Shown here piece by piece: positions 15,788-64,000 of a stretch of 64,000 nucleotides of DNA (positions within the stretch are counted from its first letter, which is position 1; the number at the start of each line of letters is the position of its first letter). The notes beneath the pieces are model-generated. The model saw nothing but the letters and a program-made list of their open reading frames with translations. It had not been told where the DNA came from and did no database searches. This stretch comes from Nitrosospira sp. Nsp11. GTDB taxonomy: Bacteria > Pseudomonadota > Gammaproteobacteria > Burkholderiales > Nitrosomonadaceae. The stretch covers positions 62,001 through 126,000 of the forward strand of contig NZ_FRBV01000003.1 in assembly GCF_900142705.1 (NCBI RefSeq). Direction: 5' to 3'. Both the position numbers and the translations under genes were made by a program.

Positions 15788-15832
15788 AAATTATTTGCCT
15801 TATGCCCTCGCTGTCTTATTACAACTTGTTTA

Positions 15833-17092: not shown

Positions 17093-17504
17093 GCCCGCTT
17101 CTCCTTTTGTTTAGAGAACCTCGCCTCTGAAGAAGTTCCCAGTGCGTCGCTCATCGATGGCAGAACCGCACTATTCAAACTGATCAGGCGTGCACGACGA
17201 AAGCTCGCACTTACTATTCGTAAAGAGCAACGCCAGGAAGCGTAACGTAGTGAACGTCCGCTGGAACCCGGAGTGAAAGGGCGTCCCCTGCAAGCTGCCT
17301 GCTGTGCCAGGCTCCAAGCCGAAAGGAGGCGCCCCCAAAGCATCGTAATAAGCCACCGTCGGGTTCGTCAGTGCCGGGATGCCGCGAAAGCCTGTTCCGG
17401 TCCTTACCCCACGCATCTCCCGCAACAGGCGTATGCGCGGACTCCTACGTCTCAGGAAATCCCTTCTCCTGGAGTCCGTAAAACTGCCTCGCATCCACTC
17501 AGGC
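17093..17504. other. Intergenic stretch, no supported gene
   Basis: The stretch lies between the carbonic-anhydrase-like gene and glgC, both on the minus strand. Overlapping frames exist on both strands, but none has a ribosome site or a recognisable domain. It should contain the glgC promoter. Confidence 0.4.
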
Positions 17505-17858
17505 TTATCCGGAAACTCCCTGGGGTTGAACTTCTTCCCAGGTTCCATCGAGCTTGATATAGAACAGTTTTGGCTCGAATCCAAGTGAACGGGCAGTATC
17601 CGCCGCCTTGTAAAGGTCCTCCTTTACCGCACCGGCGCCACAGTCCTCGTGAACGGAGAGCACAGCCACGTGGCTATCATGCAGCCTCTTCGAAAGCCCC
17701 AGATGAGTTTCAAGCTGTTCTTTATTTGCCGCGCCCCCGGCGCATATCACTCGATCAAACGTTCCCTCTTTAACATTCAGGTACTCAAGTAATTTGTCAA
17801 TTGTGCCCTGAATCCGAAAGTCCATACATCCAAACACAGCGTGAGAACATGTATGCAT
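17505..17858 (-). CDS. Dwarf beta-carbonic-anhydrase-like protein
   Basis: This 117-aa protein keeps the zinc-site pattern of beta-carbonic anhydrases in a much shortened chain. CMDFR (Cys11, Asp13, Arg15) matches the C-x-D-x-R motif. HEDCGAG (His70, Cys73) matches the H-x-x-C-G motif. VICAGGAAN lies between them, as in the family core. Ordinary beta-enzymes are about 200 residues or more, so the N-terminal helices and C-terminal part are missing. It may be an enzyme, a zinc or bicarbonate-binding remnant, or another small member of the fold. It sits divergently upstream of glgB in the glycogen cluster of an autotroph. Activity is not shown by sequence. Confidence 0.7.
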   Translation of the reverse strand: MHTCSHAVFGCMDFRIQGTIDKLLEYLNVKEGTFDRVICAGGAANKEQLETHLGLSKRLHDSHVAVLSVHEDCGAGAVKEDLYKAADTARSLGFEPKLFYIKLDGTWEEVQPQGVSG

Positions 17859-18050
17859 TTGTTTTTCCTTATTTTATTTATCCCCAAGATACTGGAGCGA
17901 AGCAATGAAGGGATAGAGATTGTGCCCCTCTCCAAATTCCCCGTCAAGTAATCCGTTCAGTTCGTAGAGAACGAATAAATTGTGCGAGTCTGTCGCAAAT
18001 GTCTGTCTGGATTATGCTATCCCGAAGGGGAAGAGCATGAGGAGGGGAGC

Positions 18051-20366: not shown

Positions 20367-20737
20367 TGCTCCCCTGGCAAAATATGAATGGATGAGGTGG
20401 GGCTTGCCGCATCGCCCTATCGCGCTTCTAATCGATAATCGCCCGACAAATGGCTGACGCGTTGGAGTCGCGAAGACACGTCAAATAAACAAGACTCTAC
20501 CGATCGTCTGCCTTTCCAGCAAGCCGTAGCAAAACGTACCTGACAATCGAACTCGCCTGGCACAACGGTGGCCAGGAGTACTCAACGCGGGCCTGCGCCA
20601 GCTTATTCCTTTTCTGATGAATGGCGGCATCAAGACGACGCCATGCTCGATCGGCGAGTTTCGGATGGAAATCAGTGAAATCCAGGACTGATCTTCATTT
20701 CTCGCTCTTTCCAAGAAAATCTTAATGGGTGGACCTC
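20367..20737. other. glgB-glgA spacer, no supported gene
   Basis: No start codon with a ribosome site or conserved motif was found on either strand. The stretch is long for an operon spacer, so glgA may have its own promoter here. Confidence 0.4.
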
Positions 20738-22219: not shown

Positions 22220-22252
22220 TTTCCCCGCCGAGATAGAGCAATTGCGGGGAAA
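22220..22252 (+). terminator. Hairpin after glgA
   Basis: TTTCCCCGC at 22220-22228 pairs perfectly with GCGGGGAAA at 22244-22252 across a 15-nt loop. It begins immediately after the glgA stop. No T-run follows, so termination is plausible but not certain. Confidence 0.4.
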
Positions 22253-22370
22253 ACCTGGAGCCTTATTCGGCGTTTTGAATCACAGGGAGGATATTTGTTT
22301 CAATGATTGGGTGGGGCCGCGAAGCATGGCGCTGGCGCGCGCCCCCTTGGACTAAATTGAAAAAAGGAAA

Positions 22371-24926
22371 TTACACCCACACCATCATGCCCATTTCAAA
22401 TGGATGCGTCAGCAATAGTTGATATGGATAAACGCGTATGTAATAGTCCAGCTTTCCGCATAAATCCGGAGTAAGGCTCAGTGAATACAGGTGCTCGCCC
22501 GATTCTTCGATGCCGCTAAATTCGAACCTGATATGATTGAACTCACGTAAAGTGACCTTGTTGCGCTGACGGCAAATCAACATTTCCACTATCACGTCCT
22601 CAGGCTGTAAACCATTCAGCCTTACCGCGACATCAAACTGCACAGCATCACCAAAACTGATACGCTTGCGTGGTGTATCTAATCGACGAATCGCTACGCC
22701 TTCCCATGTTTTCCGTACGAAAGCTTTCCAGGCCGCGATTTTTTTCGCCCCGCTGAAGTCATCGGCGGCGTAAAGTGCCCCTTGCCTGCTGGCCGGCACA
22801 TAAAACTTCTGGGTGTACTCCTTTACCATGCGCGCGGCCGTGTAGCGCGGCAACAACGATATCATTGAGTCTTTCGCCATTTTCACCCACCCTGGGGAGT
22901 AACCCAATTTATCGCGCGTATAGTAGAGCGGCACCACGTGATCCTGCAGCGTTTCATAGAAATCCCTGCTCTCTTCCTTGTCGCGCCGCGCCATATCCAT
23001 GTTTTCCGGTCCGGGCTTGATCGCCCAGCCATTCTTGCCGTTATAGCCCTCGCCCCACCAACCATCGAGCACGCTCAGGTTGAGTGTTCCATTTATACCT
23101 GCTTTCATGCCTGAGGTCCCGCTTGCCTCCAGCGGATATACCGGGTTGTTGAGCCACACATCGACTCCGGCCACCAACCGCCGGGCTAGACGTAAATCGT
23201 AATCCTCAACCAGCAAAAGTTGTCCCTCAAATTCTGGCAGCTGGGCAACCTGGTTGATGCGGCGAATCAGGTCCTGCCCCGGGACATCGGCGGGATGCGC
23301 CTTACCCGCAAAAATAATCATGACCGGGCGGTCCTGATTGAGCATGATCCTGCGCAACCAGTCGAGGTCATCGAATAGCAGTGTCGCGCGTTTATACGTG
23401 GCGAAACGGCGCGCAAAGCCGAGCGTCAAAATGTTTGGATTTATGGGATCAGTGAATCTCAGCAGGCGGTCGAGATGCGCTTCAGAACCATGATTGCGGG
23501 AAATTTGAACCGCGAGACGCGCACGTATGCTATATAACATCTGGGATTTCAGTGTTTGCCGCACACTCCAGAACAGGTGATCGGGAATGGCGCTGATACG
23601 CGACCAGTAATCGGTATCACACATATTGCTACGCCATTCATAGCCGAGATAGCGGTCGAATAAATCCGGCCATTCCTGAGCCAGGAAGGTCGGCACATGC
23701 ACGCCATTGGTGATATGCGCCATCGGATTTTCTTCCGGCTCGATCTGTGGCCATAAATCTCTGCAGATTCGCGCGGAAACGTTGCCGTGTATCTTGCTCA
23801 CGCCGTTCTGAAAACGCGAGCCATGAATGGCAAGATTTGTCATGTTAAAATCGTGGCTGCCGCGAACGCGGCCCAGCGCCATAAATTCTTCCCGGGTGAT
23901 TTCAAGATCACGGTAAAACCCTTCGAAATAAGCGTCCATCATGTCATCGCCGAAGTGATCATGTCCTGCCGGTACCGACGTATGGGTTGTGAACACCGTG
24001 CTTGCCGCCACTGCCTCCAGCGAGCTCGCAAAATCCAGCCCTTCTTGCACCAGATTACGCATACGTTCCAGCATCATGAACGCAGCATGCCCTTCATTGA
24101 TATGCCATATCGTGGGCTTGATTCCCACCGCCCTCAAGGCGCGGACACCGCCAATGCCCAGCAGGATTTCCTGCTTGATGCGCAGGTTCCGGTCGCCACC
24201 ATAGAGTTGATGCGTGATATCGCGGTCTTCTGGAGAATTTTCCGCTAAATTCGTATCAAGCAGATAAAGCGTAACGTGACCGATCTTTGCCTGCCAGACC
24301 TTCACGACGACCTTCCGTTGCGGCATTTCCACTTCGATTCGTACTTCGGAACCATTGTCGCCCAACACGGGCGCTACGGGGAGATCTTCAAAATCCGAAT
24401 CAGTATAGGTAACTCTTTGATTACCCAGATTATCGATGGTCTGGAAGAAATATCCCTGACGGTAGAGCAAACCCACCCCGACGAATGGCAAGCGCAAATC
24501 GCTCGCTGCCTTGCAATGGTCGCCCGCCAGGATGCCAAGGCCACCCGAATAAATTGGAAAGCTCTCATGAAAACCGAACTCGAAACAAAAATATGCCACC
24601 CGGTCATCAGGGTGCAAGCCTGCCGTTGCGCCGTTTCGCACGGGCTCTGAATGATATGAATCGTAAGCCGAAAGAACGCTGTTGTAATTAGCCAGAAATA
24701 CCTGGTCCTCCGCGGCTCTCAGCAGCAGAGACTCATCCACGCGCTTGAGAAAGTCTTTGGGGTTGTGTCCCACTGTCGCCCAAAGGCTGGGATCCCGCCG
24801 GGAAAATAGCGAGCGCGTGGAGCGGTCCCAACTGTACCAAAGATCATTCGCCAGTTCCTCAAGCCGCGATAGACGAGGGGGTATTTTTGGATTGACAGCA
24901 ATAGTAAATACAGTGCCGGAGGACAT
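22371..24926 (-). CDS. glgP: Alpha-glucan (glycogen) phosphorylase
   Basis: This 851-aa GT35 enzyme is of the TIGR02094-type alpha-glucan phosphorylase group. It releases glucose-1-phosphate from glycogen. Family features are DDRVAYFCFEFGFHESFPIYSGGLGILAGDH near the N-terminus and HITNGVHVPTFL in the middle. The pyridoxal-phosphate site is YPLEASGTSGMKAGINGTLNLSVLDGWW with its active-site Lys. The ATG at 24926 is preferred over an in-frame TTG at 24962, because the remaining N-terminus (MSSGTVFTIAVNPKIPPRL) fits. It converges with glgA. The protein differs from E. coli GlgP in length and N-terminus, as expected for this subgroup. Confidence 0.92.
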   Translation of the reverse strand: MSSGTVFTIAVNPKIPPRLSRLEELANDLWYSWDRSTRSLFSRRDPSLWATVGHNPKDFLKRVDESLLLRAAEDQVFLANYNSVLSAYDSYHSEPVRNGATAGLHPDDRVAYFCFEFGFHESFPIYSGGLGILAGDHCKAASDLRLPFVGVGLLYRQGYFFQTIDNLGNQRVTYTDSDFEDLPVAPVLGDNGSEVRIEVEMPQRKVVVKVWQAKIGHVTLYLLDTNLAENSPEDRDITHQLYGGDRNLRIKQEILLGIGGVRALRAVGIKPTIWHINEGHAAFMMLERMRNLVQEGLDFASSLEAVAASTVFTTHTSVPAGHDHFGDDMMDAYFEGFYRDLEITREEFMALGRVRGSHDFNMTNLAIHGSRFQNGVSKIHGNVSARICRDLWPQIEPEENPMAHITNGVHVPTFLAQEWPDLFDRYLGYEWRSNMCDTDYWSRISAIPDHLFWSVRQTLKSQMLYSIRARLAVQISRNHGSEAHLDRLLRFTDPINPNILTLGFARRFATYKRATLLFDDLDWLRRIMLNQDRPVMIIFAGKAHPADVPGQDLIRRINQVAQLPEFEGQLLLVEDYDLRLARRLVAGVDVWLNNPVYPLEASGTSGMKAGINGTLNLSVLDGWWGEGYNGKNGWAIKPGPENMDMARRDKEESRDFYETLQDHVVPLYYTRDKLGYSPGWVKMAKDSMISLLPRYTAARMVKEYTQKFYVPASRQGALYAADDFSGAKKIAAWKAFVRKTWEGVAIRRLDTPRKRISFGDAVQFDVAVRLNGLQPEDVIVEMLICRQRNKVTLREFNHIRFEFSGIEESGEHLYSLSLTPDLCGKLDYYIRVYPYQLLLTHPFEMGMMVWV

Positions 24927-24997
24927 AGGTAATTTGAAAGGGAAAGTGGAGAGTTGCCTCAACCCGAAAGCCGAGAGGGAATCGCGTAGCTGGATTT

Positions 24998-29171: not shown

Positions 29172-29555
29172 GATGGAAATGCCTATAAATAGGTTAGCTG
29201 GTTAAAAGTAAAACGCCCAAGTTTTGCATGTATAACTCGTCACTTAATGACAACGTGTTACTGACGGTATGACAACCAGGGTAAGAATTACGCTTTCATG
29301 CCGATCTTTTACACCGAGATGAACACTTGCTTCGTCCATCCTATAAAGAAGCTCGACCACCAAATCGCACTTCCCTGACATTTTTTCCCCTCTTGAATCG
29401 CTTGTAGGAACATTTTTAAGCGGACTAAGGGTATTTAACTACTTCACAAATACTTGACAAATAGTATATACATTTTTCACAAATTCACAACTATTTTATG
29501 CATTCACCACAAATTCTTCACATCCTGGATAAAAATTTTTTAATCTTACGGGCGC
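29172..29555. other. AT-rich intergenic with repeated TTCACAA motifs
   Basis: No gene is seen. The motif TTCACAAAT occurs at 29443-29451 and 29476-29484, TTCACAA again at 29484-29490, and TTCACC/TTCACA variants to about 29522. The same motif in reverse (TTTGTGAAG, TGTGAAG) recurs at 31699-31757 and about 35540-35575. It may be a binding site shared by the carbon-transport region. Confidence 0.4.
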
Positions 29556-29990
29556 CTAGTGGGGCCGGACCAACAAAATTGAAATTTCGACATCTTTTAC
29601 CAGTTGCTCCGCCACAGAGCCAGTAACCAAGCGCTCCAGGCCGCGGCGGCCTTCCGTACCCACAACGACCAGGTCAGCGCCCCATTCCGTAACGGCAGCG
29701 GCGATGGCCTCCACGATAGCAGTCCGGCCGTATCTTTCTTCTGCTTCCAGTAAACGAGTCTCCACTATAGGCGTTGCACTGGTAGTAGCCGTTGTCCTGG
29801 CACGTTCCAGCAGCGCCGCTCCGGCTTTCCGGTTATTAACCTCATCATCGTCGATCCCCTTCATCCCTTTCGTCACAGTATGGACGATGCATAGTACGGC
29901 TGCATCGGTAGCTGCAATATACTGGGCCTCCTCCAATGCGATCCGGGAAATTTCATCGTCGGCGATAGCTACCATGATCTTCTTGTACAT
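29556..29990 (-). CDS. Universal stress protein, UspA family
   Basis: This is a 144-aa single Usp domain. The C-terminal ATP-binding signature G-x2-G-x9-G-S/T is present (VVVGTEGRRGLERLVTGSVAEQLV), so it is probably of the nucleotide-binding class. The N-terminal KIMVAIADDEISRIALEEAQ is typical. The start has AAGGAG five bases upstream. It lies 77 nt downstream of the SulP-type permease on the same strand, so the two are probably cotranscribed. Usp partners of SulP transporters are common and suggest energy- or stress-linked control of transport. Confidence 0.92.
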   Translation of the reverse strand: MYKKIMVAIADDEISRIALEEAQYIAATDAAVLCIVHTVTKGMKGIDDDEVNNRKAGAALLERARTTATTSATPIVETRLLEAEERYGRTAIVEAIAAAVTEWGADLVVVGTEGRRGLERLVTGSVAEQLVKDVEISILLVRPH

Positions 29991-30067
29991 TAAGACTCCT
30001 TTTATAGGTGATTTATAAAAAGGGGCGGCATCAGTGCCCGCCCCAATTAAATTGTATCCCCGGTCAG

Positions 30068-31414
30068 CTAGTCAGCGGTGCCGCCTGTCGAAAATTTCTC
30101 GAAATATTTCTTGATGATGACCTTGCTCGGTATCTTGCCAGCCTGTTGAAAAACCAGGTAGTTGATAAGCCCATGAACCGCTAGTGCTACCAGCATGCCT
30201 TCGAAGATACCTATCTTGAAGACCAGCAAGGCAGTAAGAACTGAAAGCATCAACGCATATTGTCCGTAGTTTGCGACGTGCCACAATCCCATGACCATTT
30301 TCCAGCCCGAGAAAATCATGATTGCGGCCAGCGAGAACTTCGGCAAATACTCAAGATAGTGCGAATTGAAGAAGAAGAAGAGAACGACCAAACCGACGAT
30401 GGCATTCGAAAACTTGGTATATGCCCCGGCCAGTCTATTGGTGGTGCTTTTAGCCAGTCCGTCCAAATTGGTCATGCCACCAAAAAAACTCGCGCCCATA
30501 TTGCTTATCCAGATAGACCACAAGCTGTTATTGGTGTTGCATTTGCGCCCCAGCGGATCTATTTTTTCGATCGCGGCGTTGCTCATTACCTGCTCTATCA
30601 CATCGATCGTGGCAAGCATCGCGGCGAACCCCACGATATACACCCACATCATTGCGCTCTCGATGTGCGGCATCGGGAGGGAAAGCGTAAACGGAACGTC
30701 CTCCACGAATAGCATGGACAACGGCAAGAATTGAGCCAGCACGATACTTGCTATTATTAGCAAGAAGTAAGGAATTGCGGGCTTTGTATCCTTGAATTTT
30801 GAAAACAGGTATACAAACCCGGCGAAACCGACTATCGATATAAGCACGATCTGGATGCGTGCCTCGTTCCAGAATACATCGGCTGTTTCCTGGTCTGCCG
30901 GTATCTCATAACAAAATGTAGCAAATTTGAGACCTATCTTCAGGCCCACTCCCGCCAACAGACCTTCTACGAGATAAACCGGCACCGCCTGCAAAATATA
31001 CCGCTGCCAATTGTATTTCCATACGACCGCTTGCATGGTGGCAGTCAGGAAAATGACAAAAGCCATATTTTCTATACCGAAAGCATGAACGCCCATCGCC
31101 AAAGCAGGCGCGAGACCTGCCGCCACCCCCGGCACGCCGATATAATTGCCCGGCTTGAAAAAAGCATTGACCCATCCGATGAAACAGGCAAAAACGACCG
31201 TCGCCAGCGCTACTTTGATAGGATACTCCGACATCATGGCAATGCCGATCGATAGCGGGACCGCCATGGTTCCAGTTATAATTCCAGCCTGAACGTCGCG
31301 AGCGAGATACTTGACCTGAAACCCTGCCGACCCTGGCGCGACAACTTCTTCCGGGGTGGCAGCGGGCACATGATCGTCGGTTGACAGCGACTTATCGATA
31401 GTAGATGAACTCAT
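30068..31414 (-). CDS. SulP-family anion permease (putative bicarbonate transporter)
   Basis: This 448-aa multi-spanning permease has about 11-12 hydrophobic segments. The SulP core opens with LARDVQAGIITGTMAVPLSIGIAMMS and continues YIGVPGVAAGLAPALAMG. The usual cytoplasmic STAS domain is absent: the chain ends shortly after the last membrane segment. Substrates in the family include sulfate, bicarbonate and other anions. The neighbouring UspA, SbtA and PII-like genes favour bicarbonate, but this is inference. AAGGAAGG precedes the ATG. Confidence 0.8.
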   Translation of the reverse strand: MSSSTIDKSLSTDDHVPAATPEEVVAPGSAGFQVKYLARDVQAGIITGTMAVPLSIGIAMMSEYPIKVALATVVFACFIGWVNAFFKPGNYIGVPGVAAGLAPALAMGVHAFGIENMAFVIFLTATMQAVVWKYNWQRYILQAVPVYLVEGLLAGVGLKIGLKFATFCYEIPADQETADVFWNEARIQIVLISIVGFAGFVYLFSKFKDTKPAIPYFLLIIASIVLAQFLPLSMLFVEDVPFTLSLPMPHIESAMMWVYIVGFAAMLATIDVIEQVMSNAAIEKIDPLGRKCNTNNSLWSIWISNMGASFFGGMTNLDGLAKSTTNRLAGAYTKFSNAIVGLVVLFFFFNSHYLEYLPKFSLAAIMIFSGWKMVMGLWHVANYGQYALMLSVLTALLVFKIGIFEGMLVALAVHGLINYLVFQQAGKIPSKVIIKKYFEKFSTGGTAD

Positions 31415-31640
31415 GGTACCTATCCTTCCTTTTTAAAAAATTTAAACATAACTTCAAACGAAGAAAAAACTGAGAGGGACCTGCTTTCCGGCGGTTGTTC
31501 GACGTCTGCTCAATTTCGTCATAAGTAAAAAACAGCTGATCTGGAAGTAACCTGAAGTCCTTAACTGGCTTGCCCACAATCAGATGCTGAAGCGTTTGCT
31601 TAGCCGGCTTTGGCAGCCGCTTTTGCAGCGGATTCAACAT
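31392..31640 (-). CDS. Hypothetical small basic protein, doubtful
   Basis: This is an 82-codon frame starting ATG with TAGAG upstream, ending inside the first codons of the SulP gene (23-nt overlap). The N-terminal two thirds (MLNPLQKRLPKPAKQTLQ and on) look protein-like; the C-terminus, rich in Arg, Lys and aromatic residues, does not. No family was recognised. It may be a real leader gene or just an open frame across the SulP promoter region. Confidence 0.25.
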   Translation of the reverse strand: MLNPLQKRLPKPAKQTLQHLIVGKPVKDFRLLPDQLFFTYDEIEQTSNNRRKAGPSQFFLRLKLCLNFLKRKDRYHEFIYYR

Positions 31641-32515
31641 TTAAATCTCTACAAATCCATTAAGGCATTAAAAGCAACGCTAACATAGCACCAGCGATGT
31701 GAAGAATATGTCTGTTAAATGTCAAGAATTTGTGAAGTTTTAAATATCTACTTCACATCACGCAAAAGCGGGTTTGCTCATTCTTGTGCCAATATGCGTT
31801 TAAGTCGTTTTTATACAGCTACTTAACTGATAATAATTTCTGGATATGACACGCTTTGAATCGATGGTATTTGTGACATATGTCAATTTTATGTAGGTAA
31901 ATCGGAATTACCGCATAAGGAGTAAACGCGCGTCCAAGCCCAATTAAATGGAAGGTGTGCGTTAACCGAAAAAGAATTGAGATAGTATTCGGGCTGAAGC
32001 CCTACTATGCTTTGGTGCGGTGATTTGGGCCGACGACGTGATCCCGCGAAATAGCTCTGAGATCAACTGTATCCTGGAAAAGCTGCCATAGTCACGTGCC
32101 GTTTTTTCCGGTTCACGTGGACTTGGGGACTTGGGCGGGGATGCATTTAACCTGAATCGGCCCCAGCCGCTCATTTTTCAGCTCGCTTGTCAGCTCATTG
32201 TCAACCAAGTGCTAAATTGAAAAGAGATTTTTGTACCCATCCATCTGCCGGATCAGGTTTAAGAAGGACCTGCTCAGGTGGTGAATACTGCCTGTTCCTT
32301 GTTGAGCCGAACCACAATTTTCCCTGTTTCTCAAAGGCGTGCGGGGGCAAGGTCAGGCACACGATGAATCTGGGTAAGTGGGGTGGAAGGTGTGACGGTA
32401 AATCCGATGGGCTACCCATTGAGGCAGAGTGGCCTCTCCAGAAGATGGCGTAGACCAGGAGAGAGCAGGCGCCCGAAGCGCGGCCGCGGCAATTCGATCG
32501 TGCGCAATCCCGACT
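31641..32515. other. Long non-coding or decayed stretch
   Basis: No supported gene lies here. It holds TGTGAAG copies at 31699 and 31731, the latter inverted as ACTTCACA at 31750-31757. The perfect 12-bp palindrome TGACATATGTCA sits at 31874-31885, inside a sequence like FNR/DNR-type sites. The part from 31960 is GC-richer and has short frames on both strands, looking like eroded mobile DNA next to the IS630-like fragment. AACCTGAATCGG at 32149 and CCGGATCAGGTT at 32248 may be diverged ends of the repeat found at 24998. Confidence 0.4.
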
Positions 32516-33022
32516 TCACGCTTCTGGATTATTTTTCTTCTGACCCGTTCTTTGCGGTGGATGCATGGCCGTTGCATCTGTTTTTACGTGGTGCGCCAGC
32601 TTTGACCATCCATGGCGGCGAAGCAACTGATATACCGTCGATGTCGACACGGACCCGCCTACGCATCTTTCAAGTTCGGCTTTCAATTCGTGTATAGGAA
32701 GAGCGCCCGAGGCCTGGGCTTGGGTAACGAATGGAGCGAGAAACTGTACTTCTTCATCGAGACTCATTCGTGCGTGATTGCGCAGTCCCTTTTTTGTTTT
32801 GACCTGTTCAGCGCCGGCCTCAATTCGCTGAAACCGCGTCCGCAGTTTTCCCGTTCTACTTTTAGATAAACCGATGATGACGGCTGTCTGTTCCAATGAC
32901 AGCCCGAATTCCAGCGGAAGAAGTAATGCCTGAGCAGCACGCAACGCCTCGACTGTTTTGGCTGAGGCGATTTTTTCCTTCGCCACTTCCACAAACTCCC
33001 GTCCTGTCGCAGGTCTCGCCAT
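32516..33022 (-). pseudogene. IS630-like transposase, N-terminal half only
   Basis: The 168-aa frame has two DNA-binding parts typical of IS630-family transposases. A helix-turn-helix lies at about residues 40-70 (LSLEQTAVIIGLSKSRTGKLRTRF). A winged-helix region lies near 120-150 (GGSVSTSTVYQLLRRHGWSKLAHH). The catalytic DDE domain that should follow is missing: the frame stops right after GQKKNNPEA and nothing similar continues downstream. It is therefore a remnant, or one half of a split transposase. No terminal inverted repeats were found. A start at 33022 (MARPATGREFVEVAK) fits the family; an in-frame GTG lies at 33073. Confidence 0.65.
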
Positions 33023-33553
33023 TTGTATTCTCAACTCAGGTTTATACCGAATAATTCGGCTAACTTCAGCCACAATTCAATTTCGCCAGCAGGTTGATCA
33101 ATTAGTTGGATCTCGATCGTTAAACTCGAATCAGGAAACTACAGTCAGCTTGCGAGTCAAGCCATCCTTCACTCCATCTTCCGATTCGGCCGCCCAAGAC
33201 GCCAATTCCCTTGAGAACGCGGCCTTACCATCTTTCATACCTTTTGGATTGAAGTGCGAAATCCATAAAATCCGTTCCCTGCACCGACTGGAACGAATCA
33301 GTTCCCCGGCTGTTGCGTTCGATATAAGCCGGGGAATTTGATGGCGCCCGGTCAGGAGTAGTTGCCATAATTATTAATAAGCCGGACGGCGGGAGAGCCG
33401 AAAGCCAACTAGCAACGTCTTTTCGGGAATTGATGATTTGGCATAATCAACTCCTTAGGTTATTAGAAACTGGCAATGGTCGGTTTAAAAACTCAAAAAG
33501 GCGCATTCTCTTTCTTCTTACTTCATATCCTTGAAGCGCCACGCTAAGACGGA
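33023..33553. other. Intergenic stretch, probable gene debris
   Basis: No complete gene is seen. A minus-strand frame without a proper start runs from about 33375 down to about 33130, ending LTRKLTVVS. It reads protein-like (RILWISHFNPKGMKDGKAAF in its middle) but was not recognised. It sits beside the IS630-like fragment and may be a remnant. Confidence 0.35.
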
Positions 33554-33883
33554 TCAATAGGAAGCTGCAGGCCCTATAACCCATTTGCAGTCCGACATCA
33601 GGCACATTCCGCCATATTCTTTCAGTTTTGGACGAAGCGCCATCACCACTCTCTCAGCCTGCTTTTCTTCGCAAGCCAGAATCACTATGGCATTTCTTTC
33701 CTCCAGAGCAATGTCATCCGGGCGCCGCTCGCCGCGCGATCCAAGGCCACCTCCATGTCTCATGAACGTGTAGCCGCGCACATCGACTGTTCGTAACAAG
33801 GCAATCAGATCACCGAGTTTTTCTTCATCGATGACGATCTCTATGCGTATCATCGAAATTAAAACGTCTGCTCTATTAAACAT
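33554..33883 (-). CDS. PII-like protein, CPII/SbtB type
   Basis: This 109-aa protein has the PII-like ferredoxin fold pattern. It opens IRIEIVIDEEKLGDLIALLRTVDVRGYTFMRHGGGLGSRGERR, where the second half corresponds to a short T-loop. It continues NAIVILACEEKQAERVVMALRPKLKEYGGMCLMSDCKW. The end CLMSDC recalls the C-terminal cysteine loop of carbon-linked PII-like proteins. SbtB and the Thiomonas CPII protein bind adenyl nucleotides, and CPII responds to bicarbonate. Lying 128 nt downstream of sbtA on the same strand, it probably controls that transporter. GGAGAG six bases before the ATG supports the start. Confidence 0.8.
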   Translation of the reverse strand: MFNRADVLISMIRIEIVIDEEKLGDLIALLRTVDVRGYTFMRHGGGLGSRGERRPDDIALEERNAIVILACEEKQAERVVMALRPKLKEYGGMCLMSDCKWVIGPAASY

Positions 33884-34011
33884 GGTTTCTCTCCCCAGAA
33901 TATTTATGCGTTGATAGTCGGATTTGAATACTCAGCCGGGCCGAAATACTTCTTGAAAGGATTTCAATGAATTGATGAATCACCCCCAGATAACAGCGGC
34001 ATCCGTTTTCG

Positions 34012-34992
34012 CTACACACCCGCCAGATACTGGGCGGCACCGTAATACAAGGGAATACCGATTACCACATTAAACGGAAAAGTCACGCCGAGTGACAGAG
34101 TCAGGTAAAAAGATGGATTAGCCTCCGGCACAGCCAGGCGCATCGCAGGCGGCACGGCGATATAGGAGCAACTCGCTGCAAGCACGGTGACCAGCGTGAC
34201 TCCGCCTACCGAGTATCCAAGCCAGAAGTGACCGACCATGAGGCCGCAAATCGCGCCGATCAGAGGCATCGCGATACCGAAACAGACGAGGAAGACCCCT
34301 ACCGCCTTAAATTCCGACAGCCTTTTTCCCGCTTCCATGCCCATATCGCACAGGAACAGGCACAAGGCGCCCATGAATATGGTTTCAAAAAACGGCTCGA
34401 TCTTGTGATAGCTTGGGTCCGAGACCACTGCACCTATTCCCATGGAGCAAAACAGCAAAAGAATACTGCCATTGGTGAAGGCTTCGCGCAGCAGGTGCAT
34501 ATACATCCCCTTCTCGCCCTTGGTAGCCCCCCCCATTACTTTCCGCGAATAACCGGCCAGCACCAGACCGATCATGATTGCGGGGGACTCCATGATTGCC
34601 AGCATGATGACCGGATAAGCTTCAAAGGTCACGCCGATGCCACCCAGGAACGCCACCGCCGTCATGTAAGTGCCCGCGCTCACCGAGCCGTAGTGCGCCG
34701 AAATTGCCGCGGCATTGAGCGGGTCGATCTTTCCAAGCCCCCGCAAAATAATATATGCGAGAATAGGCAAGCCAATACCAAACAGAAAAGCCGCTCCCAC
34801 GGCAGGCAGGGCATCGCCCATAGACCCCTGAGTCAGAGCCTTGCCGCCATGCAACCCGATACCTATCAGCAGATAAATAACGATCATCTTGTGCATATCG
34901 GGCGGAAATTTAAGATCCGATTTGATCACCTGCGCGAACATACCGAGGGCGAAAAATAGTATCGCCGGTACGAGAAGACTGGTAATTGACAT
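34012..34992 (-). CDS. sbtA: SbtA-type sodium-dependent bicarbonate transporter
   Basis: This 326-aa membrane protein of the SbtA family (formerly DUF897) has about ten hydrophobic segments in two inverted halves. Family sequences are LLIGIGLHGGKALTQGSMGDALPAVGAAFLFGIGLPILAYIILR, AAAISAHYGSVSAGTYMTAVAFL, ESPAIMIGLVLAG and the second-half AASCSYIAVPPAMRLAVPEANPSFYLTLSLGVTFPFNVVIGIPLY. In cyanobacteria SbtA imports bicarbonate with sodium. AAGGAGGG precedes the ATG. It is paired with a PII-like protein downstream, matching the sbtA-sbtB arrangement, and fits an autotroph with RuBisCO. Confidence 0.92.
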   Translation of the reverse strand: MSITSLLVPAILFFALGMFAQVIKSDLKFPPDMHKMIVIYLLIGIGLHGGKALTQGSMGDALPAVGAAFLFGIGLPILAYIILRGLGKIDPLNAAAISAHYGSVSAGTYMTAVAFLGGIGVTFEAYPVIMLAIMESPAIMIGLVLAGYSRKVMGGATKGEKGMYMHLLREAFTNGSILLLFCSMGIGAVVSDPSYHKIEPFFETIFMGALCLFLCDMGMEAGKRLSEFKAVGVFLVCFGIAMPLIGAICGLMVGHFWLGYSVGGVTLVTVLAASCSYIAVPPAMRLAVPEANPSFYLTLSLGVTFPFNVVIGIPLYYGAAQYLAGV

Positions 34993-35301: not shown

Positions 35302-35635
35302 GCCCTCCGAAGGTGAATGAAAATTTCTGGAACGGTGACGGAATCGGTAACGATTCTTTGCTGGGTTCGCATTGGTTTATCCTTATTTGTAAATCAAAAA
35401 TGTATAGAATGGTGGAAGCTGCAGCGGTAACAATAGTTTTCTTAATACCAGTAAAATCATGGAACAACTCGTTGCTTTACGGCTGCGAAACAAACGTTAT
35501 AGTTGTGCTTCCATGAAGCACAGATTGCCACAACCCATGTGAAGAACCTGTCGCGGGGTTGTGATTAATTTGTGAAAGGCAAAAAAAGAACGATCACGAA
35601 GCGTGATGTTTTTGGAAACCGCAAATGCAGGAGGA

Positions 35636-36904
35636 TTACGGAAAGGTGATGTGGAAGGTGGCGCCTTTTCCCGGCGTGCTATCGACCTCTATGATCCAGC
35701 CATAGTGGTCGCAGATACGCTTGACAATCGCGAGGCCGATTCCCAGGCCTTCGCCTTTTGTCGACCCGCGAAAAAAGCGCTCATAAAGGAGGGGCAGATA
35801 GGAGGGTTCGATGCCGATGCCGGAATCGGAGATTGAAAGACGCTTCCGGCTGAAATTTACGCGAATAAAACCGCGCTCTGTATATTGCACTGCATTGCGA
35901 AGCAGATTCACAAGAGCCGTGTGCAATGCTTGCCGGTTTAGCGTGAGGACAGCATTCGGCTCTACTGCAACCTCGAACATGAGGCGTTTTCGATATATTT
36001 CAGTGCATACAGGCTCCACTGCATCATATACGCACTCGGCGATTGCGACGGGCTCCATGATGCCCAGCGCCTGCTCGCGAGCAAGGAATAACAACGCCTG
36101 CAATTGTTCTCCCATGCGAGTCGCTGCGACCTCGATCATTCCGATGCGCGCTCGCGCCCTCTCCGAGAAGCCCGGTTCCGTAACGAGCAGTTCGCAACTC
36201 GTAAGGATGGTAGTGATCGGAGTACGCAACTCATGACTTATGTTCGCGGTGAACTCCTGCTCGCGTCGCAGCATGCGTGTGATGCGGTTCTGATAGTCGT
36301 CCAGTGCGCGGGCTAGTTGCGCCACTTCCTCGTCCTGACCGGGCTGGATCATTGTTGCGTCCTGTCCCGCGCCGGGCGCTAGATGTCTTACTCGCTCCGC
36401 GAGATCGGTAACTTGCCTGACAAGTACTCCTGCAAGCAGATACCCCACCAGCAACGCAACCCCGACCACCGAAAGAAGGGATAAAATGATAAGAAGCCTG
36501 AGTTCCTGTTGCCGCTGATCATGAAGCCCGATTTCATAGGCAACAAGAAATTTGACGCCGTCGACATGGCGTACCGCGACCCGAATCTCCTCCGGGCCCC
36601 TGAAAACCTTGTGGCGTCTATAATTGAGCCCTTGCAAGTACTGTGGGAGTTTGGATTCCTCGGCGGGATCATGGATAATGTACTTTTCGAGATTTGAGCC
36701 CACCTGGGGAACAAAATCACTACTCTGGCGATAGCGCTCGAGCAGATAGTCCATCTCGGTTTCCATGATTTGCTCGATATGCGCCTCTTCGATATCGTCA
36801 GAAGCAATATACAAGCTGATACCAAGCGTTCCGACGACGACTATGCAGAATACCGCAAAGGCCAGCGCAACTCGTCGGCGTAGGCCACGTTTAATCCCTG
36901 GCAC
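35636..36904 (-). CDS. OmpR-partner sensor histidine kinase (QseC-like)
   Basis: This inner-membrane kinase has two membrane segments: RRVALAFAVFCIVVVGTLGISLYIA near the N-terminus and LLIILSLLSVVGVALLVGYLLAGVLV after a periplasmic sensor of about 110 residues. HAMP follows, then HisKA with the phosphoacceptor His in FTANISHELRTPITT, and HATPase with NLLRNAVQY, DSGIGIEP and GEGLGIGLAIVKRICDHYG. The GTG at 36904, overlapping the regulator stop, gives the usual short N-terminus (VPGIKRGLRRR). In-frame ATGs at 36931 and 36952 are possible. It forms a two-gene operon with the response regulator. Its signal is unknown. Confidence 0.88.
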   Translation of the reverse strand: MPGIKRGLRRRVALAFAVFCIVVVGTLGISLYIASDDIEEAHIEQIMETEMDYLLERYRQSSDFVPQVGSNLEKYIIHDPAEESKLPQYLQGLNYRRHKVFRGPEEIRVAVRHVDGVKFLVAYEIGLHDQRQQELRLLIILSLLSVVGVALLVGYLLAGVLVRQVTDLAERVRHLAPGAGQDATMIQPGQDEEVAQLARALDDYQNRITRMLRREQEFTANISHELRTPITTILTSCELLVTEPGFSERARARIGMIEVAATRMGEQLQALLFLAREQALGIMEPVAIAECVYDAVEPVCTEIYRKRLMFEVAVEPNAVLTLNRQALHTALVNLLRNAVQYTERGFIRVNFSRKRLSISDSGIGIEPSYLPLLYERFFRGSTKGEGLGIGLAIVKRICDHYGWIIEVDSTPGKGATFHITFP

Positions 36905-37574
36905 GGGAAATGAGGCGGTACCCAAGTCCATGAATTGTCTCAATCGGATCATAGCCGCCAGCGCGACTTAATGCACGGCGCAATTCGTGCATATGGCTGC
37001 GCAATGTATCGCTGGTTCCCTGCGTGTCGCCCCAGACTTCGGATTCAAGTTCCCTGCGACTGAATACGCGGCCGGGCTCGCCCATCATGAGTGCGAGCAG
37101 GCGGATACATTTGGGGGGCAGCTTAACGGGTGTGCCGGCAAAAAGTACTGATAGCGTTTTGGGATCAAATGACAGATCGCCGGTTTCCAGCATGCGGCTG
37201 GTAACCTTTCCGCCATGCCGTTTATGCATCGCGACGAGACGGGCTTCGACCTCTTTTAGCGCAAACGGCTTGATCATGTAATCGTCGGCGCCGTGATCAA
37301 ATCCTTTGAGCTTATCCTCCAGCGTATCACGCGCGGTCAGCATCAGCACCGGCGTGTCAAGGTCTGCTTCCTGGCGGAGTTTCCGGCACAATGTGATGCC
37401 GTCCATGGCCGGCAGACCAAGATCAAGCAGAATCCCATCAAATTTCTGCGTTACCGCGAGATGCAGACCCGTGATGCCGTCAGCGGCAGCATCGACACTG
37501 TGACCGCGCGCCTCGAGAAAATCGTAGAGGTTTGTGGCAATAGCCGGATCATCTTCAATAATAAGTATATGCAC
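36891..37574 (-). CDS. OmpR-family response regulator
   Basis: This 227-aa regulator has a receiver domain with the phosphoacceptor Asp51 (GILLDLGLPAMDG), acidic pocket EDD at 7-9, and switch regions LMLTARDTLEDKL and DDYMIKPFALKEVEARL. The C-terminal winged helix ends HELRRALSRAGGYDPIETIHGLGYRLISRA. It is cotranscribed with the overlapping kinase gene. Divergence to QseB/PmrA-like regulators is visible in spacing and motifs, but the regulon is unknown. The adjacent sbtA region is one possible target. Confidence 0.92.
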   Translation of the reverse strand: MHILIIEDDPAIATNLYDFLEARGHSVDAAADGITGLHLAVTQKFDGILLDLGLPAMDGITLCRKLRQEADLDTPVLMLTARDTLEDKLKGFDHGADDYMIKPFALKEVEARLVAMHKRHGGKVTSRMLETGDLSFDPKTLSVLFAGTPVKLPPKCIRLLALMMGEPGRVFSRRELESEVWGDTQGTSDTLRSHMHELRRALSRAGGYDPIETIHGLGYRLISRARD

Positions 37575-37795: not shown

Positions 37796-38857
37796 TTAGC
37801 GATATTTGCGGCTGAGGGCATGAACTGCTTCCACCAAGGTCAGGGCATTCTCCGGTGGAGTAAACTGCGAAATGCCATGGCCAAGATTGAAAACATGGCC
37901 GTTGCCTTTTCCGTAACCGGAAAGAATTTTTTCCACTTCAGCAGCAATCACTTCCGGTGTGGAAAACAGCACTGCGGGATCAATATTTCCTTGCAAGGCA
38001 ACTTTGTGTCCAACCCGTCGGCGTGCCTCGGCGATATCTACGGTCCAGTCGAGTCCAACCGCATCGCAACCACTATCCGCAATGCTCTCCAGCCATAGCC
38101 CGCCACCCTTCGTAAAAACGATGTTAGGCACGCGCTCACCACCATGCTCGCGCTTTAGTCCCGCCAGTATCTGACTGATATAGCGCAAAGAAAATTCCCG
38201 ATAGGCTGCGTGAGACAAGGCACCGCCCCAAGTATCAAAAATCATCACCGCTTGGGCGCCGGATTCGATTTGTGCATTCAGATAAGCGGTTGCAGCCTGC
38301 GCGGTAATATCGAGAATGTGATGCAACAGATCCGGTCGCCGGTACAACATGGTTTTGATCTGGCGGAAATCGGTACCGCCGCAACCCTCCACCATATAAC
38401 AGGCAAGCGTGAAAGGACTGCCGGAAAAGCCGATCAGCGGAACCCGGTTGTCCAACGTCCTTCGGATTTGAGAGACCGCATCCATTACGTAACGCAGGTG
38501 TACCTCGGGATCAGGTACCGTAAGCGCACGAATCTCCCATTCTTCACGTAAGGGTCGCTCGAACTTGGGCCCCTCGCCATCGGAGAAATAGAGCCCCAAC
38601 CCCATCGCATCGGGGATAGTTAGAATGTCCGAAAACAATATTGCAGCATCCAGCGGGAATCGCGCCAGAGGCTGCATCGTAACTTCAGTCGCGAAATCCG
38701 GATTTTTGCAAAGAGCGAGAAAGTTGCCGGCACGAGCGCGCGTCTGGTTGTACTCGGGCAAATATCGCCCAGCCTGGCGCATCAGCCACACCGGTGTATA
38801 TTCAGTAGGTTGCCGCAGGAGAGCCCGCAGCAGGGTATCGTTCTTCAATCTTGTCAT
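37796..38857 (-). CDS. hemE: Uroporphyrinogen III decarboxylase
   Basis: This 353-aa enzyme decarboxylates uroporphyrinogen III to coproporphyrinogen III in haem synthesis. Signatures are [20 protein letters not shown] at about 22-41, [21 protein letters not shown] with a conserved Asp, [18 protein letters not shown] and [29 protein letters not shown] near the C-terminus. GGAG precedes the ATG. A haem-protein-rich ammonia oxidiser would have high demand for this step. Confidence 0.96.
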
Positions 38858-39164: not shown

Positions 39165-40286
39165 TCAGCTCTCCTCGATGGCAAATAACCGTCTATATTC
39201 CCGAATTGCATAACGATCGGTCATGCCGGCAATATAATCGGCCACCGCCTGATGCTTATCGTGATGATACTTTGACTGAAATACTGGAGGAAGCAGCCGG
39301 ATATCCGAGCAAAACGCCTTGAAGAGTGCCTGGATCGTGTGTCGCGCCTTGGCGCTCATGCGCGCCACTTTGTAGTGCCGGTACAGATAATCACGCAGAA
39401 ATTTTTTCAGTTCCTGTTGTTCCTGCCAGATTCCCTTGCTGAAACCAATCAGGGATGGAGCCGCCCGCACAGCCTCAAGACTATCCGGACGGGTATCCGC
39501 GATATTGGCGGCGCTTTGACTGATCAAATCCCCCACCAGCGTATTGATCATGCGTCGAACGGTTTCATGAACCAGACGCCGTCCCGAGATGTCAGGGTAA
39601 TGACTTCTTGCCATCGATAAATGCCGATCGAATATTTTGACTTCCGCAAGTTGCTCCTGGGTAATCAGGCCGGAGCGCAAACCGTCGTCTACGTCGTGGT
39701 TGTTGTAGGCAATTTCATCGGCAAGATTGGCCAGTTGTGCTTCCAGTGACGGTCGCTGATCCGAAAGGAAACGCTCGCCCACATCTCCAAGTTTAACGGC
39801 ATTCTTTCTGGCGCAGTGCTTGAGGATGCCTTCACGAGTTTCGAAGCACAGGTTCAGGCCGTCAAATGCGCCGTAACGCTCTTCCAGCACATCTACCACA
39901 CGCAGAGATTGCAAGTTGTGCTCAAAGCCGCCGTAATCTTTCATGCAGTCGTTCAGCGCTTCCTGCCCGGCGTGACCGAATGGCGTATGGCCGAGGTCGT
40001 GCGCCAAGGCAATAGCTTCTACCAGGTCTTCGTTGAGATTCAAATTGCGCGCCACCGAACGGCCGATTTGCGCCACTTCCAGGCTGTGCGTCAAACGCGT
40101 GCGGAACAGGTCGCCTTCGTGATTTACGAAAACCTGAGTTTTGTATACAAGCCTGCGAAACGCGGTGGAATGAATGATGCGATCGCGATCACGCTGGAAG
40201 GCGGTACGTCCTGGCGCTGATTCTTCCGCGATGCGACGGCCGCGCGAACTGGCCGGCGTTACCGCATAAGGCGCCAGCTCATGCAT
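39165..40286 (-). CDS. dgt: dGTPase-like dNTP triphosphohydrolase
   Basis: This 373-aa HD-domain enzyme removes triphosphate from deoxynucleotides, limiting dNTP pools. Features are [24 protein letters not shown], the HD metal ligands in [10 protein letters not shown] and [21 protein letters not shown], and [14 protein letters not shown]. The ATG at 40286 ([10 protein letters not shown]) overlaps the end of aroB by 8 nt. A TTG at 40304 is less likely. The aroB-dgt pair is a common betaproteobacterial arrangement and implies coupled expression. Confidence 0.93.
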
Positions 40287-41379
40287 TGGCAGTACATTCC
40301 ACAAGAGTTTCAGTCAATATATCCGCCGGTACATCCGAATGGAGCACGGCCTCGCCTATATGCCGCAGTAAAATGAAACGCATATTCCCTCCCTCTACCT
40401 TCTTGTCCAGTCCCATCAAGCGCAGGTATGTTTCGGGACCGAGAGCGGGCGCTATAGCAGAAAGCCCTGCTTGCGCATAAATTTTCCGGATTCGCTCTAC
40501 CTCGGCCTCACCGATCATTCCCATGCGCCTGGATAGTTCCGCAGCCAGCATCGTACCGGCTGCAACTGCTTCGCCATGCAACCAGACACCGTAACCCATC
40601 GCATTTTCGATGGCGTGACCAAAAGTATGCCCTAGGTTGAGTAATGCGCGACCACCGCTTTCGCGTTCGTCGGCTTGCACAACCTCCGCCTTGTTTACGC
40701 AACTTCGGCGTATTGCCTCGACCAGCACATCAGCGTCGCGGATAAGGAGCTTGGCCATATTCTGTTCTAGCCACTCCAGAAAGCCGGGGTCGCGGATAAG
40801 GCCGTATTTGATGATCTCGGCAATGCCTGCGCGCAATTCCCTTTCCGGCAACGTATCAAGCGTTGCTGTGTCTGCCAGTACGACCCGGGGCTGATAAAAA
40901 GCGCCGATCATATTTTTGCCAAGCGGATGATTGATACCGGTCTTACCGCCTACCGAAGAATCGACCTGTGCCAGAAGTGTCGTTGGAATTTGAATAAACG
41001 GCACTCCCCGCAAATATGTCGCGGCGGCAAACCCGGCCAAATCACCCACGACTCCGCCGCCAAGGGCGATGATGGGCGTGCTTCGCTCACAGCGGTGACC
41101 AAGAAGCGCATCGAATATGGAGTTCAGCGTCCGCCAATTCTTGTGCTCTTCCCCGTCGGGGAGAACGATGGGTACGGTCGCCACGCCTTGGCCTTCCAGC
41201 ACGCTGCGCAGCTTTTCCATATAAAGGGGCGCTACCGTAGTGTTTGTGACGATTGCGGCGCGCTTTCGCGGCAAATGGTCCAGGATAATTTCGGAATGGC
41301 TCAGAACCCCATTGCCGATATGTATCGGGTAACTACGCTTACTTGGCGTAGAGGCAAAATCTACCGTGATTGTTTGCAT
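40279..41379 (-). CDS. aroB: 3-dehydroquinate synthase
   Basis: This 366-aa enzyme is the second step of the shikimate pathway, converting DAHP to 3-dehydroquinate with NAD and a divalent metal. Family motifs are [57 protein letters not shown] and the metal ligands in [30 protein letters not shown]. No aroK is found upstream in the window. The stop overlaps the start of dgt. Confidence 0.96.
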
Positions 41380-62599: not shown

Positions 62600-62640
62600 G
62601 AATAACAGGACGCTTCTTTAATCCTTTGCTCCTGTTATTC
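62600..62640. terminator. Hairpin between convergent RND pump and cbbR
   Basis: GAATAACAGGA (62600-62610) pairs exactly with TCCTGTTATTC (62630-62640) around a 19-nt loop. It overlaps the last codons and stop of cbbR. No T-run is seen on either side, so its role as a two-way terminator is tentative. Confidence 0.45.
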
Positions 62641-63541
62641 CCGGCATCAGCGCCGGCGCCTCCTTCAACAAGAATTCCCTGAATGCTTGCGCTACGCTTG
62701 AAAGCCGTTTGTTTTTTCGGTGTACCACATGCCAATGGCGAATGATTGGAAAATCCTGCACATCCAGAATCGAGAGACGCTTTGTCTCCAATTCCAGCTC
62801 GGCCGTATGCAACGACATGATGCCCAGCCCCATCCCCGCTTGTACTGCCTGCTTGATCGCCTCGCTGGTATCCGTTTCCATCCCCCGGTTAATGGCAATA
62901 TGGTGCGCCGCAAAAAAACGTTCCATCGCACCGCGCGTGCCCGAACCGGGCTCACGCACGAGGAAAGTTTCCCGCTCCAGCCGTTTTACGGGAATACGGC
63001 GCTTTTTGCACAAGGGGTGATTCGGGGGAGCAATGACCACCAGTGGATTTTCCATAAAAGATTCCGTGGCGATATCCAGATCATCCGGTGGCTGCCCCAT
63101 GATGGCCATATCGACCACGTTGTCGGATAATTGCTTCAAAACCGTTTCCCGGTTGGCGACATTCAGGCTGACAGTAACGCCGCTATAGCGCTGGCAAAAC
63201 CTGGCGAGCAGGTGCGGGGCAAAATAATTGGCGGTGCTTACCACCGCGATATTCAGTTTGCCTCGCTCCAGACCCTTCAATTCATCGAGCGCCAGCTCCA
63301 TATCGGCCAGTTGTTGGGAGATTGCGCGGCTGTAATGATAAAGTTCGCGCCCCGCATCCGTCAGATAGATTTTCTTACCCATCTGTTCGAACAGCGGCAG
63401 ACCGATACTTTGCTCCAGCTGCTTGATCTGCATCGAAACCGCGGGTTGGGTCAGGAAGAGGCTTTCAGCCGCGCGCGAAAAACTCAGGTAGCTGGCAACG
63501 GACTCAAAAACCTTTAATTGCCTCAGAGTAAGATGTAGCAT
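62618..63541 (-). CDS. cbbR: LysR-family RuBisCO operon activator
   Basis: This 307-aa LysR regulator has an N-terminal HTH (LTLRQLKVFESVASYLSFSRAAESLFLTQPAVSMQIKQLEQSIGLPLFEQMGK). The C-terminal effector domain contains VVSTANYFAPHLLARF, typical of CbbR. It lies divergent from cbbL with 142 bp between. CbbR proteins sense metabolites such as RuBP or NADPH and activate the cbb genes. Identification rests on both motifs and position. Confidence 0.93.
   Translation of the reverse strand: MLHLTLRQLKVFESVASYLSFSRAAESLFLTQPAVSMQIKQLEQSIGLPLFEQMGKKIYLTDAGRELYHYSRAISQQLADMELALDELKGLERGKLNIAVVSTANYFAPHLLARFCQRYSGVTVSLNVANRETVLKQLSDNVVDMAIMGQPPDDLDIATESFMENPLVVIAPPNHPLCKKRRIPVKRLERETFLVREPGSGTRGAMERFFAAHHIAINRGMETDTSEAIKQAVQAGMGLGIMSLHTAELELETKRLSILDVQDFPIIRHWHVVHRKNKRLSSVAQAFREFLLKEAPALMPGITGAKD

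Positions 63542-63587: not shown

Positions 63588-64000
<413 letters not shown>

Follow-up and report, generated by a model that had tools for sequence, protein, structure and literature searches.

In cyanobacteria and Thiomonas, SbtA and CPII work alongside carboxysomes. SulP-type bicarbonate transporters have been proposed in Nitrospira marina (PMC8115632), so a bicarbonate-carrying SulP in a nitrifier is not new in itself. For the SulP protein BicA, the STAS domain is reported to be essential for transport (PMC13249358). Here we describe a locus in which an SbtA and a SulP lie close together, found in a 64-kb stretch of DNA from Nitrosospira sp. Nsp11 (the window). This stretch covers positions 62001-126000 of its contig, in a genome of 3.21 Mb that is 99.97% complete. 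After a sensor kinase gene, the genes run sbtA, a PII-like gene, a helix-turn-helix (HTH) gene, sulP, and uspA. These genes probably make up an island for the uptake of inorganic carbon (DIC) in a Nitrosospira that lacks carboxysomes. SbtA would be gated by the PII-like protein, SulP with UspA would be a second anion transporter, and the kinase and its regulator would control both. The HTH protein would act locally, and the carbon taken up would feed a red-type RuBisCO.

Each of these protein families is already known. The literature searched, which covered few subscription journals, contained neither this gene combination nor a fixed regulator beside exchangeable transporters, and neither the operator nor the HTH companion turned up there. 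Nitrosospira and SbtA occurred together in none of the literature matches listed (subscription journals lay mostly outside the search), and among matches joining ammonia-oxidizing bacteria, DabA, and Nitrosomonas, none included SbtA. In the literature searched, the DIC supply of carboxysome-less ammonia oxidizers and the pH fit of sister soil Nitrosospira seem little studied. As candidates, the island offers a set of interchangeable transporters, a conserved sensor-regulator pair, and a candidate DNA operator.

Two transporters, each with a probable small partner

The open reading frames (ORFs) and Pfam families on the minus strand agree with an earlier note on this DNA, which had named uspA, sulP, a PII-like gene, and sbtA here. 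sbtA (34012..34992) encodes a member of the Na+-dependent bicarbonate transporter family. Its Sbt_1 domain (PF05982, 358 bits) is full length, spanning profile positions 1-307 of 308, and the protein aligns to Synechocystis SbtA (Slr1512, 7cye) with E 4.9e-31. By homology, SbtA would take up bicarbonate with Na+. The next gene (33554..33883) encodes the PII-like protein (Pfam P-II, E 2.2e-10). A search of the PDB with the single sequence returned nothing at E 0.1, and a profile search succeeded, with CPII as the best match (E 1.4e-7). The structure model (mean pLDDT 83.5) gave TTHA0516 at Foldseek rank 1 and CPII chains at ranks 2-12. An RxxR at the base of the T-loop (R50, R53), which in SbtB coordinates the phosphates of ATP, is kept, as GLGSRxxR, in 15 of 15 PII-like proteins scanned. 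The same 15 proteins all lack CGPxGC, the C-terminal redox loop motif of SbtB (PMC10117731). Within the CPII/SbtB type named in the earlier note, the protein is nearer to CPII, and the SbtB loop is absent. Two cysteines, C94 and C99, are invariant in 15 aligned sequences and may be a lead to a redox site other than CGPxGC.

The pairing was followed in 61 genomes of the family, which include 23 of the genus Nitrosospira. Of the 32 SbtA copies found in the family, 30 have a PII gene within 1 kb; in Nitrosospira sp. Nsp14 (L121) the PII gene beside sbtA is in two pieces. The PII-like protein would gate SbtA by reading adenylate and perhaps bicarbonate levels. Two deep SbtA types, with 86-97% and 42-45% identity to the window SbtA, are found at this locus, one or the other depending on the relative; Nitrosovibrio tenuis (L065:5781-11798) carries the two in tandem.

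The second pair consists of sulP (30068..31414) and uspA (29556..29990). SulP is a SulP/SLC26-type permease of 448 aa whose Sulfate_transp domain (PF00916) covers residues 37-383 (E 2.6e-20, 73 bits against a cut-off of 23.2); the NCBIfam sulP model reaches only 57 bits against 380. Pfam matches the membrane domain only and finds no C-terminal STAS domain in SulP, and the Usp gene adjoins, in line with the earlier description of a STAS-less SulP paired with UspA. UspA (Pfam Usp, E 6.5e-21) carries G-2x-G-9x-G(S/T), which we take to be the ATP-binding signature of universal stress proteins. The signature is present in eight of nine Usp proteins scanned and reads GTEGRRGLERLVTGS in the window UspA. 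UspA probably substitutes for the missing STAS domain in regulation. It would trim SulP after translation, as PII would trim SbtA. This STAS-less, UspA-linked form of SulP is what stands out.

The genomic company of SulP was read in 78 named loci, drawn from the best 80 of 199 relatives. These loci are mostly from Nitrosospira, Nitrosomonas, and Nitrospira with a few others, and 13 of them duplicate genomes of the family set, leaving 65. Flanks of up to 7 kb a side were fetched and scored for DabA, SbtA, RuBisCO or CbbR, and carbonic anhydrases of four kinds. The SulP proteins are 422-523 aa long, and at least one scored DIC gene lies in the fetched flanks of 27 of the 78 loci. The partners are DabA, SbtA, Pro_CA_2, CsoSCA-like, alpha- and iota-carbonic anhydrases, and RuBisCO/CbbR, and the linkage spans Nitrosospira, Nitrosomonas, and Nitrospira. 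Chance would link a few per cent of loci, by an estimate (not a computation) from the handful of such genes in a 3-Mb genome. Of the 72 loci with enough room downstream of sulP (at least 900 bp), 38 encode UspA directly 3′ of it. Within the genus, 25 close SulP copies (69-100% identity) occur in 12 genomes. The best copy per genome is 2.2-3.3 kb from SbtA in 11 of the 12, and the twelfth genome, G016, has no SbtA. Of the 13 remaining copies, three are about 5 kb from a second SbtA.

We infer that the substrate of SulP is most likely bicarbonate, rather than sulfate or another anion. Several results weigh against this reading. No scored DIC gene was found at 51 of the 78 named loci, UspA is lacking from 34 of the 72 loci with room, and ten of the 25 close genus copies are away from any SbtA. 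Members of the subfamily occur in Syntrophobacteraceae and in an alkaliphilic Desulfobulbus, where sulfate uptake is conceivable. The NCBIfam BicA model, NF050096, gives no match to SulP at E 0.001. An AlphaFold model of SulP had a mean pLDDT of 39 and was not used.

These results leave some room for a rival explanation in which only SbtA-PII serves carbon, whereas SulP-UspA transports a different anion, such as sulfate or nitrite, and owes its position to history. SulP families are indeed described as diverse in substrate (PMC10880623), sulfate-reducer lineages harbor relatives of this SulP, and the counts of loci that lack a DIC gene or UspA fit such a history. It does not sit well with a SulP that in three genera keeps company with DabA, SbtA, RuBisCO, and carbonic anhydrases of four kinds, nor with the single operator-type motif that precedes both sulP and sbtA (see below). 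We regard transport of another anion as rather unlikely.

A different SulP is found in the SbtA-less Nitrosospira that were read (L187:12055-13707, L188, L189, L199). It belongs to another branch, is about 550 aa long, and lies beside dabA-dabB. Proteins of this type share 27-29% identity with the window SulP and align with solved SulP proteins through their C-terminal domain.

A kinase-regulator core and TTCAC arrays

The sensor histidine kinase (HK) gene lies upstream of sbtA (35636..36952, minus strand; HATPase_c and HisKA) and is overlapped by a gene for an OmpR/PhoB-family response regulator (RR) on the same strand (36891..37574; Response_reg and Trans_reg_C). The regulator is conserved in eight aligned orthologs. 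At a threshold of E 1e-60, a kinase ortholog was found in 30 of the 61 relatives and in 22 of the 23 genus genomes. The ortholog is within 10 kb of SbtA, DabA, or this type of SulP in 29 of these 30 genomes and within 2 kb in 25, which supports the link to the kinase and regulator drawn in the earlier note. One stop was flagged in the matched stretch of 15 of the 30 kinase rows. We read these flags as the gene end, though not row by row, because the kinase ORFs measure 422-443 aa wherever a locus was read.

The conserved flank of the island is formed by hemE (37796..38857, minus strand; TIGR01464 above cut-off) and the dGTP triphosphohydrolase gene dgt (39165..40304, minus strand; NF002326 above cut-off). 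Of the 13 kinase/SbtA loci read, 10 show the order dgt-hemE-RR-HK. The exceptions are L194, with hemE-RR-HK and no dgt match; L198, which begins inside the kinase; and L197, a second SbtA locus in which the orthologs are absent. The genes after the kinase vary from one genome to the next. They are dabA-dabB-SulP in L187, L188, L189, and L199; sbtA-PII-dabBAB in L190 and L191; sbtA then dabB without PII in L196; sbtA-PII in L192 and L193; sulP-uspA-dabBAB in L097, L098, and L100; a CsoSCA-like carbonic anhydrase and an inverted DAB in L195; and sbtA-PII-HTH-sulP-uspA in the window. The regulator-kinase pair looks like a fixed core beside which the transporter varies. Set against these orders, that of the window reads as an sbtA-PII-HTH cassette inserted between HK and sulP, with DAB lost, a direction suggested by the comparison. 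The signal of the kinase may be related to DIC or pH.

The intergenic regions of the island hold TTCAC repeats. A candidate operator of the form TTCACA-N27-TTCACA, with four half-sites at an 11-bp phase, lies 284 bp upstream of sulP (31698..31736, minus strand), and another of the same form and phase lies 546 bp upstream of sbtA (35538..35576, minus strand). Two neighboring TTCACA-N27-TTCACA arrays follow uspA in reverse orientation (29443..29522, plus strand), with no obvious target gene in that direction. These three spots contain 9 of the 21 TTCACA/TGTGAA hexamers in the 64 kb. The long form precedes sulP in all nine sulP-uspA loci of the genus (L063-L066, L068-L072), and one or two arrays follow uspA in the same nine, with TTGACA as one outer half-site in L068. 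It also precedes sbtA, or a carbonic-anhydrase gene before sbtA, in most genus loci; L067 has the long form only with TTGACA. The window genome contains ten exact 33-bp matches of the long form, four of them in the island, and a reversed-pattern control gave no match in any of the 23 genus genomes.

In other lineages, a short form, TTCAC-N6-TTCAC, lies between the kinase and dabA, sbtA, or sulP. This short form is the published cre/blr tag of CreB/BlrA (PMC4689548). It is present near dabA in SbtA-less genomes, where the long form was not reported. The arrays of the window lack the exact tag and represent a variant with four half-sites at an 11-bp phase. We counted both forms after leaving out the loci fetched for carrying the motif (L167-L186) and the named duplicates. 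Either form is found in 31 of 124 upstream regions of DIC transporters versus 1 of 548 others. Among the 65 non-duplicate SulP loci, the motif is present in five of seven with a kinase ortholog versus 1 of 58 without one (p 1.5e-5). Some kinase gaps had been read by eye before the count (L187, L188, L190, L192, L193, L199, and L097, which is the same place as L075). Among kinase loci whose gap had not previously been read for the short tag, L117, L133, L141, L143, L160, and L189 match and L098, L100, L191, and L196 miss. Taken together, these positions suggest that the adjacent regulator would bind the TTCAC arrays and control sbtA-PII and sulP-uspA jointly, switching both on through the phased repeats.

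There are points against this. The strict motif precedes only 10 of 24 SbtA, 17 of 82 SulP, 4 of 7 DabA, and 0 of 11 DabB_c15 genes; in three of the SbtA misses (L066, L080, L198) it stands before a Pro_CA_2 gene that precedes sbtA. An sbtA copy linked to RuBisCO (L073) has no array. The kinase is unlinked in G024 (L194), with no transporter near, and a 93%-complete draft, G018, has no kinase match although the module is present. The motif count is partly circular, as the window itself supplied the long form and some gaps had been read beforehand; the Fisher and other p values are rough and overstate independence because the genomes are related. The operator may also not be specific to the island regulator because arrays occur elsewhere: among the non-island sites of the window genome, one precedes a DUF6733 gene and one is on contig C34. 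The regulator and the kinase fall short of CreBC membership too, the former with 152.9 bits against the NCBIfam CreB cut-off of 273 and the latter with 106.6 against the CreC cut-off of 356.

The kinase-regulator pair could instead serve another task, such as one connected with hemE or envelope stress, with the TTCAC arrays belonging to a different CreB-like regulator. The arrays upstream of the DUF6733 gene, the hemE gene that adjoins the pair wherever the flank was read, the empty DabB_c15 upstream regions, and G018, with arrays and module and no kinase match, would all fit. Such a task leaves unexplained why a DIC transporter of one type or another adjoins the kinase ortholog in 29 of 30 cases, and why the tag recurs, in several lineages, in the gap that separates the kinase from dabA, sbtA, or sulP. 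We consider this alternative unlikely and retain joint control of the two transporter pairs by the adjacent regulator.

TTCAC arrays before a DUF6733-cluster gene are found in SbtA-positive and SbtA-negative Nitrosospira alike (L167:5683-5765, L170, L171, L174, L175). They possibly mark a second target or a second regulator.

The HTH gene and the RuBisCO setting

Between the PII gene and sulP lies an ORF that the earlier note did not mention (32516-33073 in full). From the ATG at 33022 it encodes a protein of 168 aa (32516..33022, minus strand) with two HTH domains (HTH_23/HTH_33) that is akin to the DNA-binding portion of IS630 transposases and has no catalytic (DDE) domain. The IS630 transposase model scores 30 bits (cut-off 100) and matches over positions 7-111 of 299 only. 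In relatives too, the protein follows the PII gene, with 155-170 aa from a shared start. A search of the 61 genomes gave 19 matches (73-100% identity), which come from 12 genus genomes and are never more than 1.1 kb from a PII gene; apart from these copies at the same relative place, the 23 genus genomes hold no other match. The HTH gene is within 3 kb of 19 of the 21 genus SbtA copies, the exceptions being that of G002, near a contig end, and one copy in G011. Three weaker family rows were found, one in G026 (44% identity, interrupted by a stop) and two fragments in G027. The protein gave no match at E 1e-8 in 368 other genomes drawn from the class, so an origin outside the family was not found there.

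The gene is under purifying selection. The median dN/dS of the HTH protein is 0.086 (over the 72 of 91 pairs with defined dS), compared with 0.067 each for SbtA and SulP, 0.126 for PII, and 0.153 for Usp, and 14 aligned sequences have a mean column identity of 83%. Pfam and NCBIfam place the ORF near IS630 transposases, and it was first read as an IS630 remnant. That it is a stray insertion-sequence remnant without function is very improbable given its 19 copies at one relative place and nowhere else in the genus, and its conservation and purifying selection led us to reject this first reading. The HTH protein is a probable local regulator, and its transposase-derived domains would add a layer of local control.

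A cytochrome P460 gene remnant lies between the HTH and PII genes (33134..33428, minus strand; tblastn pieces with 39-56% identity). A P460 gene (PF16694) is intact at this place in L080 (L080:9719-10372) and lies between PII and HTH in other relatives (L068:10168-10809, L071:9068-9694); it is broken in the window.

RuBisCO genes are found at the far end of the window. cbbR, of the LysR family (62618..63541, minus strand), is followed by the start of cbbL, the large-subunit gene (63609..64000, plus strand), which runs past the window and is succeeded by cbbS and cbbX, the latter above cut-off. Association with CbbX presumably marks red-type RuBisCO, and we assign the enzyme to this type because cbbX follows cbbL and cbbS. 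The cbbL start is 28.6 kb from sbtA, close to the 29 kb given before, and distance alone is weak evidence. The genes come closer in relatives: the order in Nitrosospira sp. Nsp14 (L121) is sulP-cbbR-cbbL-cbbS-cbbX-sbtA-PII-HTH, and cbbR-cbbL-cbbS-cbbX likewise lies between SulP and sbtA-PII-HTH in Nsp2 (L073). Imported bicarbonate would raise the cytoplasmic pool available to this RuBisCO and to anaplerosis.

The carbon-concentrating role proposed earlier stands as DIC uptake, which the context supports, and lacks support in the carboxysome sense. A carboxysome-based CO2-concentrating mechanism, which the cyanobacterial and Thiomonas partnerships might bring to mind, can be dismissed for practical purposes, since no bacterial microcompartment (BMC) shell protein was matched in the window genome, only 1 of the 23 genus genomes has one, and five of six BMC-bearing relatives have no SbtA.

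A putative carbonic anhydrase gene, Pro_CA_2 (17526..17858, minus strand; PF20393, 28.9 bits, just below the cut-off of 30), is 12 kb from uspA here and within the island in several relatives. Pro_CA_2 matches occur in 10 of the 61 genomes, in two as fragments only, and all ten have SbtA. Pro_CA gave no match in the window genome, where other carbonic-anhydrase classes were not searched; 18 of the 23 genus genomes have one. Around the Pro_CA_2 gene are glycogen-type genes (window 14012-24962) for GH57, a GlgC-like nucleotidyltransferase, branching enzyme, starch synthase, and phosphorylase. In Nitrosomonas-labeled and related records (L108:4800-5849, L110:5622-6704, L134:5668-6741), a CsoSCA-like carbonic anhydrase separates dabB from sulP; in a Nitrosospira (L195:7673-8788), one follows the kinase. 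No carboxysome gene was seen in these four loci.

Exchangeable transporters and comparison with known systems

SbtA and DabA tend to replace each other across the genus. Four of the 23 genus genomes have both, nine have SbtA only, ten have DabA only, and none has neither (Fisher p 0.0016, uncorrected for phylogeny). Exchange of a bicarbonate transporter for a CO2-active complex suggests a difference in pH niche, and because of this complementarity across the genus, a pH/DIC niche hypothesis is testable on cultured strains. Trends of DIC transporters with pH have been reported across autotrophs, and in the same source six of the organisms that combine DIC transporters with a cytoplasmic carbonic anhydrase are ammonia users (PMC10880623). 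More tentatively than for the island itself, one may picture the core as a socket. One two-component system would sense DIC or pH and drive whichever cassette adjoins it (SbtA-PII, SulP-UspA, or DAB) through an operator like the CreB tag, with the SbtA-PII of Nitrosospira traveling together with a regulator domesticated from the DNA-binding half of an IS630-type transposase. The choice of cassette would then set the form of DIC, and hence the pH range, that each ammonia oxidizer can use.

Against this background, the locus resembles several described systems and departs from each. As in cyanobacterial SbtA-SbtB, an SbtA-family transporter adjoins a PII-like gene and the RxxR of the T-loop base is kept; unlike there, the CGPxGC loop and the carboxysome are missing and the pair is succeeded by an HTH gene. 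The PII-like protein has its best profile match in CPII of Thiomonas intermedia (5d4n, 5drk), which also fills Foldseek ranks 2-12, with only 16-22% identity in the fold alignments. The CPII gene lies at a carboxysome locus, whereas the gene here is beside sulP and a two-component system. SulP shares with BicA its family and a proposed bicarbonate substrate, and differs in lacking STAS, in having a uspA gene next to it, and in escaping the BicA model. In relatives, the corresponding island houses the DAB/DAC complex (DabA/DabB), which complements SbtA in its distribution across the genus; the window genome gave no match to DabA. Finally, as in CreBC/BlrAB, an OmpR-family regulator is paired with a kinase and the TTCAC-N6-TTCAC tag is found at the transporters of relatives, whereas the window carries a longer, phased variant and the putative targets are DIC transporters.

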